Of a DNA stretch of 64,000 nucleotides, positions 19,904 through 27,793 are shown in pieces (the stretch's first letter is position 1; every line of letters begins with the position of its first letter). The notes under the pieces were generated by a model that was given only the letters and a program-made list of their open reading frames with translations, made no database searches and had not been told where the DNA came from. The position numbers and the translations under genes were made by a program. Source of the DNA: Ferruginibacter sp. (GTDB lineage Bacteria; Bacteroidota; Bacteroidia; Chitinophagales; Chitinophagaceae); contig JAHBTN010000001.1 in assembly GCA_019638575.1 (NCBI GenBank), positions 124,001 through 188,000 of the forward strand, given 5' to 3'.

Positions 19904-19932
19904 AAAAAAGCCAAACTCAAAAAAAGTTTGGC
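19904..19932 (-). terminator. Terminator of the arsR-peptide unit
   Basis: GCCAAACT (19910-19917) pairs with AGTTTGGC (19925-19932); on the minus strand six Ts follow. It lies 10 bases after the stop of the Cys-rich peptide, closing a two-gene transcript. Confidence 0.85.
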
Positions 19933-19941
19933 CTTTCTTTT

Positions 19942-20022
19942 TTAGCAGCAACCTGTACCGGTTATGCCGCAACAACCTCCATCTGCATTACAGCAAAGGG
20001 TTGTTTCCTGTTCTGTGTTCAT
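19942..20022 (-). CDS. 26-residue Cys-rich peptide downstream of the ArsR gene
   Basis: ATG to TAA frame of 27 codons. Six of 26 residues are Cys, arranged as three adjacent pairs at 10-11, 17-18 and 25-26, the last being the C-terminus. The middle is Gly-rich (DGG, GCCG, TGTG) and the N-terminus acidic and polar (MNTEQETT). There is no signal peptide, so it should stay in the cytoplasm. It starts 49 bases after the arsR stop and is followed 10 bases on by a strong terminator, so it is very likely the only other gene on the arsR transcript. Vicinal Cys pairs suggest thiol binding of arsenite or a soft metal such as Zn, Cd or Cu (inference). I recognise no family. It could be spurious, but its codon structure, position and tight terminator argue otherwise. 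Confidence 0.6.
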   Translation of the reverse strand: MNTEQETTLCCNADGGCCGITGTGCC

Positions 20023-20071
20023 GGCTTTAATTTTAATGGTGAAAAAATCATTTCTGTTTTTTTTAGTTTTT

Positions 20072-20407
20072 TCAGCAACAGTTTTTTCCTTCCTGTGCCT
20101 TTAATTTATTTATCAAAAAACTAAATTCTTTCATAAACCTGTCAACAACCTTCCAGTTGATGCAATAACAGCTTCGGGGCCCATCAATGCTGCCTTCAAT
20201 AAGGCCGGCATTCTTTAATTCTTTTAAATGCTGCGATACTGTTGACTGCGAAAGCGGCATCACTTCCACTATCTCTCCACAGATGCATTCGCTTTTTTGA
20301 GCCAGCAGTTTTAGTATGGCTATACGTGCCGGGTGCGACAAGGCCTTGGCAAATACTGCCAGGTCTTGCTCTCTTTTAATAAATTCATCTTTCTTATCGA
20401 ATGCCAT
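20072..20407 (-). CDS. ArsR/SmtB-family metalloregulatory repressor
   Basis: A 111-residue winged-helix repressor. The ATG at 20407 is used because the promoter and operator lie immediately upstream; the frame stays open further, but that part covers the promoter. Residues 40-46 (ECICGEI) match the ELCVCDL metal box of ArsR/SmtB proteins, with Cys41 and Cys43 as likely ligands. The recognition helix is [12 protein letters not shown] (53-64). Further Cys pairs occur at 80/82 (CYC) and at the C-terminus (110-111, NCC). In this family metal or arsenite binding releases the DNA. No arsB, acr3, arsC or P-type ATPase gene is adjacent; the only downstream gene is the Cys-rich 26-residue peptide. Confidence 0.88.
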
Positions 20408-20421
20408 TTTATTAATCTTAT

Positions 20422-20456
20422 ATCGCAAATATACGATTAATATGTTACCAGCCAAA
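20422..20456 (-). promoter_or_regulatory. arsR promoter with overlapping palindromic operator
   Basis: On the minus strand TTTG (20453-20456), a 19-base spacer and TATATTTG (20426-20433) match the Bacteroidota promoter consensus exactly. A dyad with arms ATCG and CGAT (20422-20437) encloses the -7 box, which fits repression by ArsR binding over the promoter. The leader to the ATG is about 16 bases. Confidence 0.8.
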
Positions 20457-20463
20457 TTAATTG

Positions 20464-20497
20464 TAAAAAAAATTGCCAAAGCTTCACGCTTTGGCAA
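20464..20497 (-). terminator. Terminator of the AIM24-family gene
   Basis: A perfect ten-pair stem, TTGCCAAAGC (20473-20482) with GCTTTGGCAA (20488-20497), and a five-base loop; on the minus strand a run of Ts follows. It separates the AIM24 gene from the arsR promoter. Confidence 0.9.
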
Positions 20498-20522
20498 CAA
20501 AGATTTGAAAATTACCGGTTGC

Positions 20523-21435: not shown

Positions 21436-24400
21436 TTATGCTTTTGCATTTTTCAGTAACCCGTTCCAAACTTTTTTACCTTGTATTTTTCGTACCAGGT
21501 ACATGATACCAACAAATATAAAAAAGATGGGGCCTGTAAAACCAAGCAGGGCTACATATTTGGTGCCATAAAATTTTTCCATAGGTCTTCTTATCCTTTC
21601 GGCAATCAGGTACATGCTTGGTACCATCACCAGTGTGAGGAAGAAAGCGAAGATTAACCCGAAAATGATTGTCCAGCTTAACGGCCCCCAAAACACAACA
21701 CTATCGCCGCCAAAGAAAATATGTGGATTCAAATGCTGAAAGAAGGACACAAAATTAATATTGAAACCCACTGCAAGCGGCAACAAACCTAACATGGTTG
21801 CCAGTGCAGTAAGCAAAACAGGTATGATACGTATCTTACCGGCCTGTATAGCTGCTTCTCTTGTTTTAACGCCCCTGTTGCGTAATTCATCTGTAAATTC
21901 AATCAGCAAAATACCGTTCTTAATTACAATGCCCGCCAGGCCTATGATACCAACCAGCAACATGATAGTGGCAATCGTCATGCCTGTAAATGCATAACCC
22001 AGAAATACACCTATTATTGAGAAGAAAATTTCGGTTAATACAATAAATGGCTTGCTCATACTATTGAACTGTAAAACCAATATCATAAATATTAAGCCCA
22101 TGGCAATAAAAAATGCCTTGGATAAAAATGCATTGGTTTCGGCTTCCTGCTCACCCTGGCCGGTTTGTTTAATAGTAACGTCGGAGGGTATCCTGTTTTT
22201 AGATTTAAAGTCGGCAATCTTAACAGCAAGTTCCTGGTTTACCTTACCAGTCATGGTAGGGTCAAGCACATTGGATTGTAACTGGATGGTACGTTTTACA
22301 TTTTTACGGGCAATGGCGCCTGATGTACTGGTGTAATCGATAGTTGCCACTGCACTGATGGGAATTGATTTTACCATCATGGTGTTCATATCCATAAATG
22401 TAATACGCATGTTCATGATGTCGGTAATGTTCTTGCGCTGCAGGTCGCTGTAACGCAATTGAATTTTATATTCATCTTCGCCATCTTTTAGTTTGCTTAC
22501 TTCTTTACCAAAAACAGCCGTACGTATCTCCATGCCTATCTGGCCGGTGCTAAGGCCTTCCATCATGGCTTTTTCCCTGTCCACATTCACAGTTATTTCA
22601 GGACTGTTAAGGTCCACATCCATCCTTAAATTTTCGATACCATACACCTGGTTGGTATCAAGATAATTGGAAAGACTGGTAGCTACTTTTGCAATCTCTT
22701 CATAACTATCACCAATCACTTCAATATTAACAGGCGGATCTGTTGGAGGGCCGCCATCTTCCTGTGCCACTTCAATACTTGCCCCGGGGATACCAACCAT
22801 TTGCTTGCGTATTTCATCAAGATATGGCTTGGTATGTTTACCATGGCGTTTTTCGTATTCAACAAATGAAACCTGAATACGACCGAGGTTGGGTTGCACA
22901 CTACGGTTATTGCTGCGTGGGTTATTAGCGCTGTTAGCCACATTGGTGATGATACTTTCTACAATACTTCCTTCAGTACCGGGCTTTTCTTTAGCTAAAA
23001 CTTTAACTACCCTGTGTTCTAACAATTGAGTAACACTATCGGTTGTTTTTACATCGGTACCAACGGGCATCTTCAAATACACATAAATAAAGTTAGGATC
23101 GCCACTTGGAAAAAATGTTCGATCGTTGCCACGCAATACCAACAAACCTGCTGCCACCGGGAACAGGATAAACAATGAAACCAATGCCCATACCGGCCTG
23201 CGGCCCTGTAATATCCAACGCAACAGTTTTTCGTACCTAGCCATTAATCCCGGTAAAACCCTGTTCTGGAAAAAATAAATCACATCTTTAAAAACATAGC
23301 GGTTTAATATTGACAATATAACCATGAACCATAAAAAGTTGGCTACGCCATGCCAGCCCGATAAGTGCAACAATGCGCCAAAGATGATGGCAACCCAAAA
23401 CAAAGGTTTTTTAAACAGTAATTTTTTAGGTTCATCAAATTCCCTGCCTTCGGGCTTCATAAAACTAACGGCAAATACTGGGTTAAAAATAAATGCAACA
23501 ATAAGTGACGCTGCCAATGTAAGTATGAGCATGGTAGGCAGGTAAATCATAAACTTACCAATAATACCTTTCCAGAAAAGTAATGGAAAGAAAGGTGCCA
23601 ACGTGGTTGCGGTTCCTGCTAAAACCGGTATAAATATTTCGCCTGCGGCTTCTTTGGCGCTTCGTATAATGGGCACTTTACCATTATTATAAATGCGGTG
23701 CGTATTTTCTATTACCACAATAGCATCATCTACAATAATACCCAAGCCAAACAGCAATGCAAACAACACTATAAAGTTTAAAGTTACAGGTGTGCCAACA
23801 ATTGCATCGCCGATAGGCAAAAATAAAAATGCCACAAACACACTGAGCGGTACACTTAATGCTACAAAGAATGCATTGGTAACACCCATAAAAAACATCA
23901 ACACTACCAGTACCAGTATAAAACCAATAATGATAGTATTTACCAGGTCTTTAAATGATGTATCTGTTGCTTTACTTTGGTCGCCGGTTATTACCACTTT
24001 CAAATCTTTTGGCAACACCTGGTCTTTTTGCATGCTTGCAACAATATCTTTTACTTTACCTGCAGTGCTGATAAGGTTTTCGCCTGCACGTTTTATAATG
24101 TTAATTGTTATTACATTTTTTCCATCAAGCCTGGCATAGCTTTCTTTTTCTTTTACCGTATCAACCAACTGGGCAATATCTTTTAAATAAACTGCAGCGC
24201 CTCTTGCACTACTGCGTACAACAATATCTTGCAGGTTTAATGCGCTGGTGAACTGGCCTTTTACTTTTATGGTACGGCGCATTGTGCCTACTTCAATCTG
24301 TCCACCGGTTATATCCCTGTTTTCACGGCTAATGGCATTTTCAATATCGGTAAAACTTATCCTTGCTGCCTGCATTTTGTATGGATCTACATTTACCTGT

Positions 24401-24993
24401 ATTTCTCTTTCAGGTGCACCTACAATTTCGGCCCTTGATATTTCAGGCAGTTCTTCAAACCTGTCCTGCATCTTATCTGCATATTCTTTCAGTTTGATAC
24501 CATCGTAATCGCCGCTGACATTTACAAACATGATGGGCATTTCACTAAAAGCAAATTCCTGGGCATCGGGTTCGGATGTGAGGTCGGTAGGTAAATCTGT
24601 TTTAGCCTTATCAATAGCATCCTTCACTTTTAGCTTTGCCAGTTCTGTTTTAACATCGGTATCAAACTCAACAATAATTAAACTGTAATCGGCTTGCGAT
24701 GTACTGGTGATTTTTTTTACCTTGGCACCGCTAATACCTTTCAGTTGTTTTTCAATAGGCCTTGTAACAAGGTTTTCTATATCTTTTGGCGAGTTACCTG
24801 CATACACAGTGGTAATGCTAATGGTTGGCACCACAATATCGGGAAACTGCTCTTTGGGCAGGGTATTAAAAGTATTAAGCCCCATGATGGTAACAATAAT
24901 GGCTATAATATAAATAGCCGTGCGGTTGTTAATAGCCCAACTGGTGGGGCCAAACTGCTTAAACTTTTTTGCAACTCCTTCTGTAAAATTCAT
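21436..24993 (-). CDS. RND efflux pump, inner membrane permease (AcrB/HAE1-like)
   Basis: Proton-driven resistance-nodulation-division transporter; with the adaptor and TolC-like channel encoded upstream it forms a tripartite drug exporter. Typical RND features: N-terminal helix, two large periplasmic loops, and central helices carrying the FGLGIIVDDAIVVIENTHR segment with the proton-relay acidic residues. At 1185 residues it exceeds the usual ~1040: an additional hydrophobic hairpin lies mid-protein (about residues 530-570, LFWVAIIFGALLHLSG onwards) and the C-terminus has further hydrophobic segments. The substrate cannot be deduced. It is last in the operon, 160 bases after the adaptor gene. 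Confidence 0.95.
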   Translation of the reverse strand: MNFTEGVAKKFKQFGPTSWAINNRTAIYIIAIIVTIMGLNTFNTLPKEQFPDIVVPTISITTVYAGNSPKDIENLVTRPIEKQLKGISGAKVKKITSTSQADYSLIIVEFDTDVKTELAKLKVKDAIDKAKTDLPTDLTSEPDAQEFAFSEMPIMFVNVSGDYDGIKLKEYADKMQDRFEELPEISRAEIVGAPEREIQVNVDPYKMQAARISFTDIENAISRENRDITGGQIEVGTMRRTIKVKGQFTSALNLQDIVVRSSARGAAVYLKDIAQLVDTVKEKESYARLDGKNVITINIIKRAGENLISTAGKVKDIVASMQKDQVLPKDLKVVITGDQSKATDTSFKDLVNTIIIGFILVLVVLMFFMGVTNAFFVALSVPLSVFVAFLFLPIGDAIVGTPVTLNFIVLFALLFGLGIIVDDAIVVIENTHRIYNNGKVPIIRSAKEAAGEIFIPVLAGTATTLAPFFPLLFWKGIIGKFMIYLPTMLILTLAASLIVAFIFNPVFAVSFMKPEGREFDEPKKLLFKKPLFWVAIIFGALLHLSGWHGVANFLWFMVILSILNRYVFKDVIYFFQNRVLPGLMARYEKLLRWILQGRRPVWALVSLFILFPVAAGLLVLRGNDRTFFPSGDPNFIYVYLKMPVGTDVKTTDSVTQLLEHRVVKVLAKEKPGTEGSIVESIITNVANSANNPRSNNRSVQPNLGRIQVSFVEYEKRHGKHTKPYLDEIRKQMVGIPGASIEVAQEDGGPPTDPPVNIEVIGDSYEEIAKVATSLSNYLDTNQVYGIENLRMDVDLNSPEITVNVDREKAMMEGLSTGQIGMEIRTAVFGKEVSKLKDGEDEYKIQLRYSDLQRKNITDIMNMRITFMDMNTMMVKSIPISAVATIDYTSTSGAIARKNVKRTIQLQSNVLDPTMTGKVNQELAVKIADFKSKNRIPSDVTIKQTGQGEQEAETNAFLSKAFFIAMGLIFMILVLQFNSMSKPFIVLTEIFFSIIGVFLGYAFTGMTIATIMLLVGIIGLAGIVIKNGILLIEFTDELRNRGVKTREAAIQAGKIRIIPVLLTALATMLGLLPLAVGFNINFVSFFQHLNPHIFFGGDSVVFWGPLSWTIIFGLIFAFFLTLVMVPSMYLIAERIRRPMEKFYGTKYVALLGFTGPIFFIFVGIMYLVRKIQGKKVWNGLLKNAKA

Positions 24994-25153
24994 ATACTTA
25001 AATTAAAAGCCCCAACAAACTTTTCGCTTTGCATTAAAAGTTTATAAGACTCTGATTTATTAAAATAACTTTTGTCTCTCCCCTAAAAAATGATGTTCGT
25101 TTTACAAACACATAAATAATTCACCGGCCTTGCAATTACTTAAACAGCAAGCG

Positions 25154-26365
25154 TTAGTTTTGAACGCTAATCAACTGGCCATCGTAAATATCCTGGTAAC
25201 CATCTGTAATCAACTGGTCGCCTGCTTTAAGCCCGGCTTTTATTTCTACATTATTGCCATATACTTCGCCAATAACTACCGTTTGTTTTTTTGCAACCGA
25301 TTTACCATTACTTAATTTACTTAACACATACACATATTTAGCGCTTTCGTCGTTTTGAATTGTATTAATAGGTATTACAATAGCATTACTGGCAGCATAG
25401 TCCTGGATGCGTACAACAGCCGACTGGTTAGGTTTTAATGCAGGGTCGGATGGTATTTTAGCTTCGGCCACAAAGCCACGCATGGTAGCATCTATCGACT
25501 GGCTTATCAATGAAATGGCAGAAGTAAATTTTTTATTTACATCCGGAATGCTGATTTCGATTGCAGAGCCTTTGTGTATTCTTGTTAAATAATTTTCGGG
25601 CACATTGGTTACCACTTTTAAATTACTGTTGTTAACAATTTTTATTTGTGGCCCGGTGGCTGTCATACCCTGGAATGTTTCGCCAACCCTTACAGCAACA
25701 ATATCTGCAACACCATTTACATCGCTGTACACGTTGGCAGTTTTTAATTGTTCTACAGCAATTTTTGCCTGTTCATTTGCTCCGTGCAACTGGTTCTCTA
25801 AGGCATCAACATTGTTTTTTGCAGATATCAATTGCAATTCGGTACCAATATTTTGATCCCATAAATTCTTTTGACGCTGATAAACATTCTTTGCAAATGC
25901 AAGTTGCGTTTTTAATACTTCGGCTTGTTGTTTTGCTGCTGTTACCTGTTGCTGCATGATAGCATCATCTAGCTTTAACAGTAACTGCCCTTTTTTTACA
26001 TACTGCCCTTGCTGTACATATAAAGCTTTTACTTGCCCGGGCATACCACGGGGCGATATGTAAGAAATATTCTGTGCATCTACATGTCCTTGCAGGTCGA
26101 TATAATGTTTAAAGTCCTGCGTAGTTACGGCTACAGTTGCCACCAGTTTTATTTTCGCAGCTGCGGCAGCGTTAGTGTCAAGCTTTTCCAGTTCGGCCTG
26201 CAGCTTTTTTATTTCTTCATCATTTTTTGCGTTCTGCGACTTCAGCTTTTCAATGGCAGCTTTCTTATCATTAATAAGCGCCGAACCTTCTTTTTTACTG
26301 TTACCGCAAGCTGCCATGATAAACATAGCCAACGCTGTAATGGATATTTGTGTTATCTTTTTCAT
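25154..26365 (-). CDS. RND efflux periplasmic adaptor (membrane fusion protein), lipoprotein
   Basis: Lipid-anchored adaptor that bridges the RND pump and the outer membrane channel. Lipobox MAAC puts the lipid on Cys20. A short heptad-rich stretch (about 35-70) precedes the barrel-lipoyl-hairpin order of HlyD/AcrA proteins: the first lipoyl half has GQYVKKGQLLLKLDD, then an alpha hairpin (about 145-200), then the second lipoyl half and the beta-barrel with KPNQSAVVRI. 403 residues. It lies 24 bases after the tolC-like gene, in the same operon. Confidence 0.94.
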   Translation of the reverse strand: MKKITQISITALAMFIMAACGNSKKEGSALINDKKAAIEKLKSQNAKNDEEIKKLQAELEKLDTNAAAAAKIKLVATVAVTTQDFKHYIDLQGHVDAQNISYISPRGMPGQVKALYVQQGQYVKKGQLLLKLDDAIMQQQVTAAKQQAEVLKTQLAFAKNVYQRQKNLWDQNIGTELQLISAKNNVDALENQLHGANEQAKIAVEQLKTANVYSDVNGVADIVAVRVGETFQGMTATGPQIKIVNNSNLKVVTNVPENYLTRIHKGSAIEISIPDVNKKFTSAISLISQSIDATMRGFVAEAKIPSDPALKPNQSAVVRIQDYAASNAIVIPINTIQNDESAKYVYVLSKLSNGKSVAKKQTVVIGEVYGNNVEIKAGLKAGDQLITDGYQDIYDGQLISVQN

Positions 26366-26389
26366 CTGTATATAGTTAGTTTGTTTTAA

Positions 26390-27793
26390 TTATAATTTAC
26401 CGGTGGCTTTTAAAAAATCAATCCTTGCAATAATGGCATCGTACAAGGCGCTTATATAATTTGTTTGAGCGGTTTTAAGGTCAACCTGCGCCGTATTAAT
26501 TTCAGATGCTGAGCCGGTACCTATTTCGTATTTCTTTTTTGTTTGATTATACACTTCTTCGGCAAGCCGCATGTTCTTTTTCTGAAAATCCATAGTAGCA
26601 ATGGCAGCAATAAAATTATTTTTTGCATTTTCTACTTCACCATCAATATTTATTTTTAATGCTTCGGTTTGGTTACGGCTTTTTTGCAGTTCCAGCTGTG
26701 CTTTTTTAACTTTTGAGTTTAATGAAAAACCGTTAAAGATGGGCACCTTCATCTGTATGCCAATGTACGAACTGGTGAACCAATCACCTTTTTCAAAAAA
26801 ATCAAATTTATTACGCTGTGCCTGTTTGCTGTATCCGCCTACAATTGCAAAAGTGGGTATTTGGCTAAGTTTGTACCGGCGCACATTAAGGCCATTAAGT
26901 GTATTGGTTAATTCCGAAATCTGGAAATCTTTCCTGTCGCTGTATTTAAATTGTGTTGCTTCAAGAATGCCTTCTTTTATTTTTTCATCATTAAGCGTAT
27001 CAGTAAGTACCAGGCTGTCTTTAACAGGCATGCCCATTAGTAATTTTAAGCCGGCATAACCATTGGTTATCATATTTTCGGCTTTAAGTTTTTCTGTTTG
27101 CAGGTTGGCCACCTGTACCGATAATTTATCAATATCCACTTTTTCGGTAAAGCCGTTATCATACATCACCTGCACATCGTGTTTAAGTTTTTCGAGCCTT
27201 TTTATGTTGGCATCAAGCAGTTCAATTTGTGTTTTACCGGCAACCAACTGGTAATAAATTTTGTACACGTTTGCTTTTATATTTTCCTGTGTAAGCGCTG
27301 CAATTTTTTCCTGTAAACTTATGGTACCGTTGCGTGCCTTTAATGCAATAAACACCTGCCCATCAAAAATCAACTGGCTTAAAGTTATGCCTGCATTGGC
27401 ATTCCAGGGATTACCAAAAGGAAATAACAGGTTGCCAAAACCTCCTGCAGGAAAAGTAACCGGTTGGCCGTTGCCATTTTTAACGCCTTCGTCTATTAAA
27501 ACCTGGTAAGTGGCCGGTGCAATAAAGTTTGGGATGGTTTGTACGGCAATATCTAAATTTCGTGTAACGCCTACCGTGCCGTTTATTTGTGGAAGGGCAA
27601 TTGAAGTTACATCACGGTTAACCTGTTTCTGTATCAATATATCAAGCAGTGCATTTTTAACCTGAACCGAATTTTTATTGGCGTAATCAACTGCCTGCTG
27701 TACAGTAAACGAATTAATGGTTTGAGCATGTGAAGAGGCTACCGACAATAACAGGCAGCATATATACAGGCCGTAATTCCTGGTTTTTTTCAT
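26390..27793 (-). CDS. TolC-family outer membrane efflux channel
   Basis: Outer membrane factor of the tripartite exporter. A signal peptide (residues 1-23, ending SHAQ) precedes two OEP repeats of long alpha-helices and beta hairpins; EIGTGSASEINTAQVDLKTA near the C-terminus is a typical repeat end. 467 residues, normal. It follows the TetR gene by 19 bases and precedes the adaptor by 24, so the regulator is probably the first gene of the operon. Confidence 0.94.
   Translation of the reverse strand: MKKTRNYGLYICCLLLSVASSHAQTINSFTVQQAVDYANKNSVQVKNALLDILIQKQVNRDVTSIALPQINGTVGVTRNLDIAVQTIPNFIAPATYQVLIDEGVKNGNGQPVTFPAGGFGNLLFPFGNPWNANAGITLSQLIFDGQVFIALKARNGTISLQEKIAALTQENIKANVYKIYYQLVAGKTQIELLDANIKRLEKLKHDVQVMYDNGFTEKVDIDKLSVQVANLQTEKLKAENMITNGYAGLKLLMGMPVKDSLVLTDTLNDEKIKEGILEATQFKYSDRKDFQISELTNTLNGLNVRRYKLSQIPTFAIVGGYSKQAQRNKFDFFEKGDWFTSSYIGIQMKVPIFNGFSLNSKVKKAQLELQKSRNQTEALKINIDGEVENAKNNFIAAIATMDFQKKNMRLAEEVYNQTKKKYEIGTGSASEINTAQVDLKTAQTNYISALYDAIIARIDFLKATGKL

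Follow-up and report, generated by a model that had tools for sequence, protein, structure and literature searches.

A two-gene arsR unit encoding a 26-residue peptide with three cysteine pairs, a probable arsenic-binding product found mainly in the Chitinophagaceae

Small cysteine-rich proteins that handle metals and arsenic sites formed by vicinal cysteines are known already. Bacterial metallothioneins of the SmtA/BmtA type are small, rich in cysteine and adjoin an ArsR/SmtB repressor, and the peptide described here is likewise small, cysteine-rich and located beside such a repressor, but it is much shorter, carries its cysteines as vicinal CC pairs among ars neighbors and matches no Pfam or NCBIfam model. 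Among the repressors, ArArsR of Arsenicibacter rosenii SM-1 is a proven sensor of As(III) and MAs(III) (2025 study, PMC11868830). ArArsR carries cysteines at positions 41, 43, 80, 82, 107, and 108. Its response to As(III) depends on Cys41, Cys80, and Cys82, that to MAs(III) on Cys41 and Cys82, and its footprint TTTTATCGTAATATTGCGATCACAATC includes the dyad ATCG-N8-CGAT (PMC11868830). The mutants C107S and C108S remain arsenic-responsive, indicating that the CC end is not necessarily an arsenic site (PMC11868830). The A. rosenii arsRMC operon has arsM and arsC adjoining arsR, as do many of the peptide-bearing relatives described below; in the available portion of the study three genes are named for this operon and a small peptide is not mentioned (PMC11868830). 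A further point of comparison is ArsD of the Escherichia coli R773 system, a larger protein that carries the C-terminal pairs Cys112-113 and Cys119-120 and whose chaperone role depends on Cys12, Cys13, and Cys18 (PMC4562236). The C-terminal CC-x5-CC arrangement is not present in all ArsD proteins.

The initial annotation of the window (the whole 64-kb stretch of DNA that was analyzed) had described a promoter overlaid by a dyad, an arsR gene, a 26-codon frame and a terminator, and this layout was confirmed as an isolated two-gene unit on the minus strand that spans positions 20456 to 19904. The upstream gene is followed by a terminator-like hairpin (20472..20498, minus strand; an 11-pair stem followed by a T run in the terminator scan), which lies between that gene and arsR and sets the unit apart. 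The unit starts at 20456 with TTTG-N19-TATATTTG (20426..20456, minus strand), a promoter of the Bacteroidota type. The dyad ATCGTATATTTGCGAT (20422..20437, minus strand) is the only ATCG-N8-CGAT copy within the window and covers the -7 box: the TATATTTG box and the N8 of the dyad are the same eight bases. The arsR gene (20072..20407, minus strand) begins with ATG and encodes 111 amino acids. It is followed by a gap of 49 bases, the last part of which is an A-rich start region, AAAATTAAAGCC (20023..20034, minus strand), that is similar among relatives, and by the 26-codon peptide gene (19942..20022, minus strand). The product, MNTEQETTLCCNADGGCCGITGTGCC, contains the three Cys-Cys pairs at residues 10-11, 17-18, and 25-26 that had been read from the frame. 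A terminator-like hairpin with six T (19904..19932, minus strand; core stem 19932-19910, T run 19909-19904), which the terminator scan reports on the plus strand only, closes the unit, and the 60 bases past the stop codon of the peptide gene fold with -18.0 kcal/mol. The next gene on the same strand begins 276 bases further on and is not an ars gene; it presumably belongs to a cell-wall cluster. Upstream of the unit, on the same strand and separated from it by one gene and the terminator, lies a putative RND-type trio (21436-27793, minus strand), three genes that resemble an efflux pump, an adaptor, and an outer-membrane factor.

The product of the window arsR gene is a winged-helix protein of the ArsR family (PF01022, 53.6 bits with a cut-off of 22; NF033788, 71.3 bits with a cut-off of 55), and the ECICGEI motif and the cysteine tail reported for it are both present. 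Its cysteines (41, 43, 80, 82, 110, and 111) have Cys41, Cys43, Cys80, Cys82, and a C-terminal pair in common with ArArsR, and by sequence comparison the repressor is of the ArArsR type. The window dyad consists of the same two half sites as the ArArsR footprint with a different N8, and its position differs in that the ArArsR site was placed over the -35 element by the authors of the study (PMC11868830) whereas the window dyad lies over the -7 box. ATCG-N8-CGAT was found no more than 100 bases before the start in 75 of the 107 distinct arsR upstream regions of the fetched loci, compared with an expectation of 0.07 of 107 from mononucleotide shuffling. The exact dyad is present in 17 of 21 listed peptide-bearing loci (it is absent from L011, L022, L088, and L094), and in L066 all 16 bases are identical to the window site. 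The window dyad is therefore a probable ArsR operator. The ArArsR-type pattern of six cysteines, together with the occurrence of the same dyad in the ArArsR footprint, makes trivalent arsenic, As(III)/MAs(III), by close homology the very probable inducer, which narrows the earlier proposal of a metal-sensing ArsR.

Two further arrangements of the dyad were observed. In eight loci (L024, L099, L110, L130, L132, L134, L137, and L148) two ATCG-N8-CGAT sites lie 61-65 bases apart, upstream of arsR by no more than about 90 bases. Inspection by eye places a small hairpin and a run of T in the stretch that separates the two sites, resembling a terminator flanked by repressor sites. Sequences close to the operator, such as ATCGCAATATTGCAAT, stand immediately 5' of the peptide gene in only 2 of 30 members (L066 and L094), and in L066 a near copy was also seen by eye ahead of arsM; these copies suggest further arsenic-controlled starts.

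Vicinal thiols bind many soft metals, and the window ArsR also matches the CmtR and BigR models, with scores below their cut-offs. Both points would fit a peptide that carries Cu(I), Cd(II), or Zn(II), or one that acts on the repressor by resetting or anti-repression, but we regard either role as highly improbable in view of the cysteines and the dyad, which fit the As(III)/MAs(III) sensor (PMC11868830), and of the neighboring genes in relatives, which are arsM, ACR3, arsC-like, and ArsN2 genes according to family models.

The conservation of the frame and its cysteine pairs had been put forward as the test that could refute the proposal, and both were found in 29 further intact relatives, giving 30 intact members of the peptide family (the window, L005, L011, L014, L016, L022, L024, L025, L066, L087-L091, L094, L097, L099, L110, L128-L134, L137, and L147-L150). 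The consensus of 22 members is MNTNQKDPGCCxxGSxCCGxTxxGCC, and lengths range from 16 to 32 residues. The number of cysteines varies from four to eight, so that no single geometry is kept: a two-pair variant (MNTNQNDPGCCGGGCC), four-pair variants (L066 and L094), and CC..C.C...CC variants (L099 and L110) were all identified. The window copy retains all six cysteines and diverges from the consensus outside the pairs, where the usual KDP/NDP and W are absent.

A comparison of ten pairs by the Nei-Gojobori method, of equal length and hand-picked among close relatives (L134 and L087 were each used twice), gave a pooled pS of 0.376 and pN of 0.109 (pN/pS 0.29, or 0.42 if the shared cysteine codons are omitted), in line with the dN/dS-type check that had been proposed; two of the ten pairs, both of the 16-residue form, contain no synonymous changes. 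Differences at codon positions 1, 2, and 3 number 29, 26, and 61 (242 codons each). Of the 455 frames in the window that open with ATG and span 15-45 codons, only one encodes at least three CC pairs. Among 4,725 distinct short frames from all fetched loci, part of which were fetched with the peptide profile, 20 do so and all 20 are the peptide gene in ars loci; six of these 20 (L096, L097, L014, L016, L025, and L066), as well as L001 of the window, come from ArsR searches instead of the peptide profile. A chance frame was rejected on the basis of the conservation across relatives and of this count. The peptide was also considered as a remnant of arsM, which was rejected since it lies directly 3' of an arsM in 22 members and is thus a separate gene. 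In one locus (L015:440-680, identical to L106) an arsM gene appears to be reduced to an N-terminal piece followed by a CCKPGSGCC tail.

The searches based on ArsR only yielded 80 loci and an additional 29 loci (L095-L123) from 59 genomes of the genus of the window. The peptide is present in 11 of 42 close arsR loci (L005-L027 and L095-L113) and none was seen in the other 31; at least four of these loci were seen twice (L005/L096, L009/L100, L013/L104, and L015/L106), several are truncated by the end of a contig, and base-by-base reading extended to 18. L099 and L110 were found solely by this reading, which implies that some members may still be missed. With the peptide profile at the family level (E ≤0.001), 20 of 394 genomes in 9 of 101 genera gave a match, 19 with an intact gene and one with a broken gene (L151). 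At the order level (E 0.01) matches were found in 20 of 396 genomes, consisting of 11 peptide genes, all within the Chitinophagaceae, and nine other matches (six DUF6428 tails, one ArsM tail, and two unrelated). A ten-member profile matched 2 of 395 genomes at the phylum level, both Chitinophagaceae and one of them the window genome, and at the class level 3 of 345 genomes matched: the window genome, another member of the Chitinophagaceae, and one spurious match (L157). Taken across these levels, the peptide gene is mainly a feature of the Chitinophagaceae, and the member counts are lower bounds since none of the profiles includes L099 or L110, and the two latest ones also lack L066 and L094. 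The assignment to the Chitinophagaceae comes from L005, which carries that name and is one and the same locus as L096 from the genus of the window. L022 belongs to the Chitinophagaceae (through L085), and the source of L025 and L066 is named as Bacteroidetes bacterium. Two of ten profile matches (L092 and L093) and L157 were set aside after inspection, and a second match in one order-level genome was rejected as an ArsM tail. The broken gene (L151:1510-1650) has no in-frame ATG, lacks the last cysteine pair, and adjoins an arsM. No plasmid-borne copy was recovered by tblastn from 72,556 plasmid records with the L005 peptide as query (E up to 10), and the window peptide matched no family in Pfam or NCBIfam (E up to 10). 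Four weak matches to granulin peptides among solved structures (E 0.0055 to 0.021) were attributed to cysteine content and rejected.

The gene directly 5' of the peptide gene is arsM in 22 of 30 members and arsR in the remaining eight (the window, L022, L025, L066, L088, L094, L148, and L150). The peptide gene is followed by arsC, ACR3, ArsN2-like genes, arsM (L066, L094, and L148), other genes or no ars gene. In each of the 29 relatives a further ars gene, arsM or arsC, accompanies the peptide gene, in many cases together with ACR3, a channel, or ArsN2, so that the description of the peptide as the only partner of arsR holds for the window genome, where the unit contains no pump, reductase, or methylase, and fails for the fuller ars loci of the relatives. 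Neighbor names were tested on examples with family models (NF008823, arsenite methyltransferase; TIGR00832, ACR3; NF040501, ArsN2; PF20001, DUF6428; PF00230, MIP channel). The arsC product of the relatives passes the cut-off of the LMWPc family (PF01451) but does not reach those of the arsenate reductase models (best 94.5 vs. 157.6 bits); the designation as ars-type ArsC therefore rests also on the place of the gene.

The frequency of arsM as a direct neighbor, which lies before the peptide gene in 22 of 30 members and after it in three, and the CC-x5-CC end shared by many ArsM proteins of these loci would agree with a dedicated partner of ArsM that supplies the methyltransferase with As(III) or accepts MAs(III) from it, with the window copy as a leftover. 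We consider this relationship unlikely. The window unit, unlike the A. rosenii arsRMC operon (PMC11868830), contains neither arsM nor arsC, units without arsM are also found in L022, L025, L088, and L150/L152, and the window genome contains only partial ArsM matches and yet the frame, promoter, and terminator of the unit are intact.

All 29 members folded have a hairpin past the stop codon (-10.1 to -30.2 kcal/mol, without a shuffle control; 60 bases past the stop were folded, 40 in L150, and L147 was left out), and in many loci arsC, ACR3, or ArsN2 lies behind it. The Bacillus CDB3 ars1 operon provides a precedent, as an internal hairpin lowers downstream expression there (PMC4562236). A leader peptide, in which the translation of the cysteine codons ahead of the hairpin tunes read-through into the downstream ars genes, would account for this arrangement. 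Such a function is nevertheless quite unlikely, given that no ars gene on the same strand lies behind the hairpin in the window or in L024, L128, L130, L132, L133, L134, and L137, that residues other than cysteine are also conserved among members, and that the cysteine codons are scattered.

The CC-x5-CC motif is not confined to the peptide. Among the proteins encoded in the fetched loci, and allowing up to two residues after the motif, it ends 38 of 68 ArsM, 17 of 27 DUF6428, and none of 53 ArsC and 17 ACR3; a further 11 ArsM carry two CC pairs with other spacing, and 102 of 106 ArsR carry one C-terminal CC. The peptide profile by itself recovers these tails of ArsM (NF008823) and DUF6428 (PF20001), whose endings, such as CCEPGSGCC or CCTPGGGCC, contain the CC-x5-CC of the peptide and are likewise encoded in ars loci. 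In ArsM and DUF6428 the motif is the tail of a large domain, whereas it makes up nearly the whole peptide. The spacing of Cys10-11 and Cys17-18 is also that of Cys112-113 and Cys119-120 in R773 ArsD, again in an ars context, with the third pair of the peptide (25-26) following this ArsD-like motif (PMC4562236). The chaperone region of ArsD with Cys12, Cys13, and Cys18 has no counterpart in the peptide (26 residues, no Pfam match). The suggestion of a new class of protein thus stands at the level of the sequence, which no family model matches, and has to be qualified by the presence of CC-x5-CC on ArsM, DUF6428, and E. coli ArsD. A speculative and on balance doubtful extension is that CC-x5-CC is an exchangeable arsenic-transfer tag, that the free peptide is a diffusible As(III)/MAs(III) carrier between ArsM and DUF6428 proteins, and that on its own, under the control of an arsenic sensor, it would constitute the whole dedicated defense of the window genome.

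The window genome (3.4 Mb, completeness 100) contains one copy of the peptide gene. It gave no match to the ACR3 model, which is matched by 7 of 14 control genomes, or to the ArsB model, which is matched by 6 of the 14, and searches run without a positive control gave no match for an ars-type ArsC and only partial matches for ArsM (the best with E 9.2e-9 and 32% identity over residues 78-181). The LMWPc family has one match, compared with three or four match rows in each of three relatives, one per genome in the ars locus, and three other ArsR-like matches show 26-38% identity. Based on the outcomes for ACR3, ArsB, ArsM, ars-type ArsC, and LMWPc, arsR and the peptide gene form the only ars-type unit found in the window genome. 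The fuller loci of the relatives, the decay seen elsewhere (the arsM remnant in L015 and the broken peptide frame in L151) and the off-consensus residues of the window copy outside the cysteine pairs might indicate that a larger ars operon is decaying here and that the unit is a remnant of it, with no present function in this genome. There is little to recommend this explanation: the dyad, promoter, start region, frame, six cysteines, and terminator are all intact, and the comparison of the window with L087 gives a pS of 0.68 and a pN of 0.28.

We consider it reasonably likely that the locus is a two-gene arsenic-response unit in which an induced thiol peptide binds As(III)/MAs(III) as a buffer or carrier. 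The cysteine pairs, the arsM and efflux neighbors, and the shared tails suggest that the peptide is probably a tiny arsenic-binding molecule. If arsenic is absent, an ArsR dimer would occupy the dyad over the promoter and block transcription of arsR and the peptide gene. Binding of As(III)/MAs(III) to Cys41/Cys80/Cys82 of ArsR would cause the repressor to leave, a step that we infer from the work on ArArsR and the likeness of the sites, and a short message reaching to the terminator would then allow both arsR and the peptide to be made, as the layout of the unit suggests. The three vicinal thiol pairs of the peptide would capture trivalent arsenicals and provide a cheap intracellular buffer or carrier, and in the relatives the peptide would work beside ArsM and the efflux genes and may hand arsenic to them.

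The matches listed from the open-licence literature include no description of such a peptide, and as far as these reach, a form this small that stands alone in ars loci is not known. Annotation commonly overlooks such short frames. If the proposed role is correct, the peptide would rank among the smallest gene products that handle metals. Chelation of As(III) inside the cell is named as a eukaryotic route (PMC11868830), and a conserved thiol peptide of 16 to 32 residues that is induced by arsenic would provide bacteria with a counterpart encoded by a gene. The peptide also connects to the CC tails shared by ArsM and DUF6428, the latter being a family of unknown function, and the window unit poses a simple question, namely whether one peptide gene may protect a cell that has no pump.
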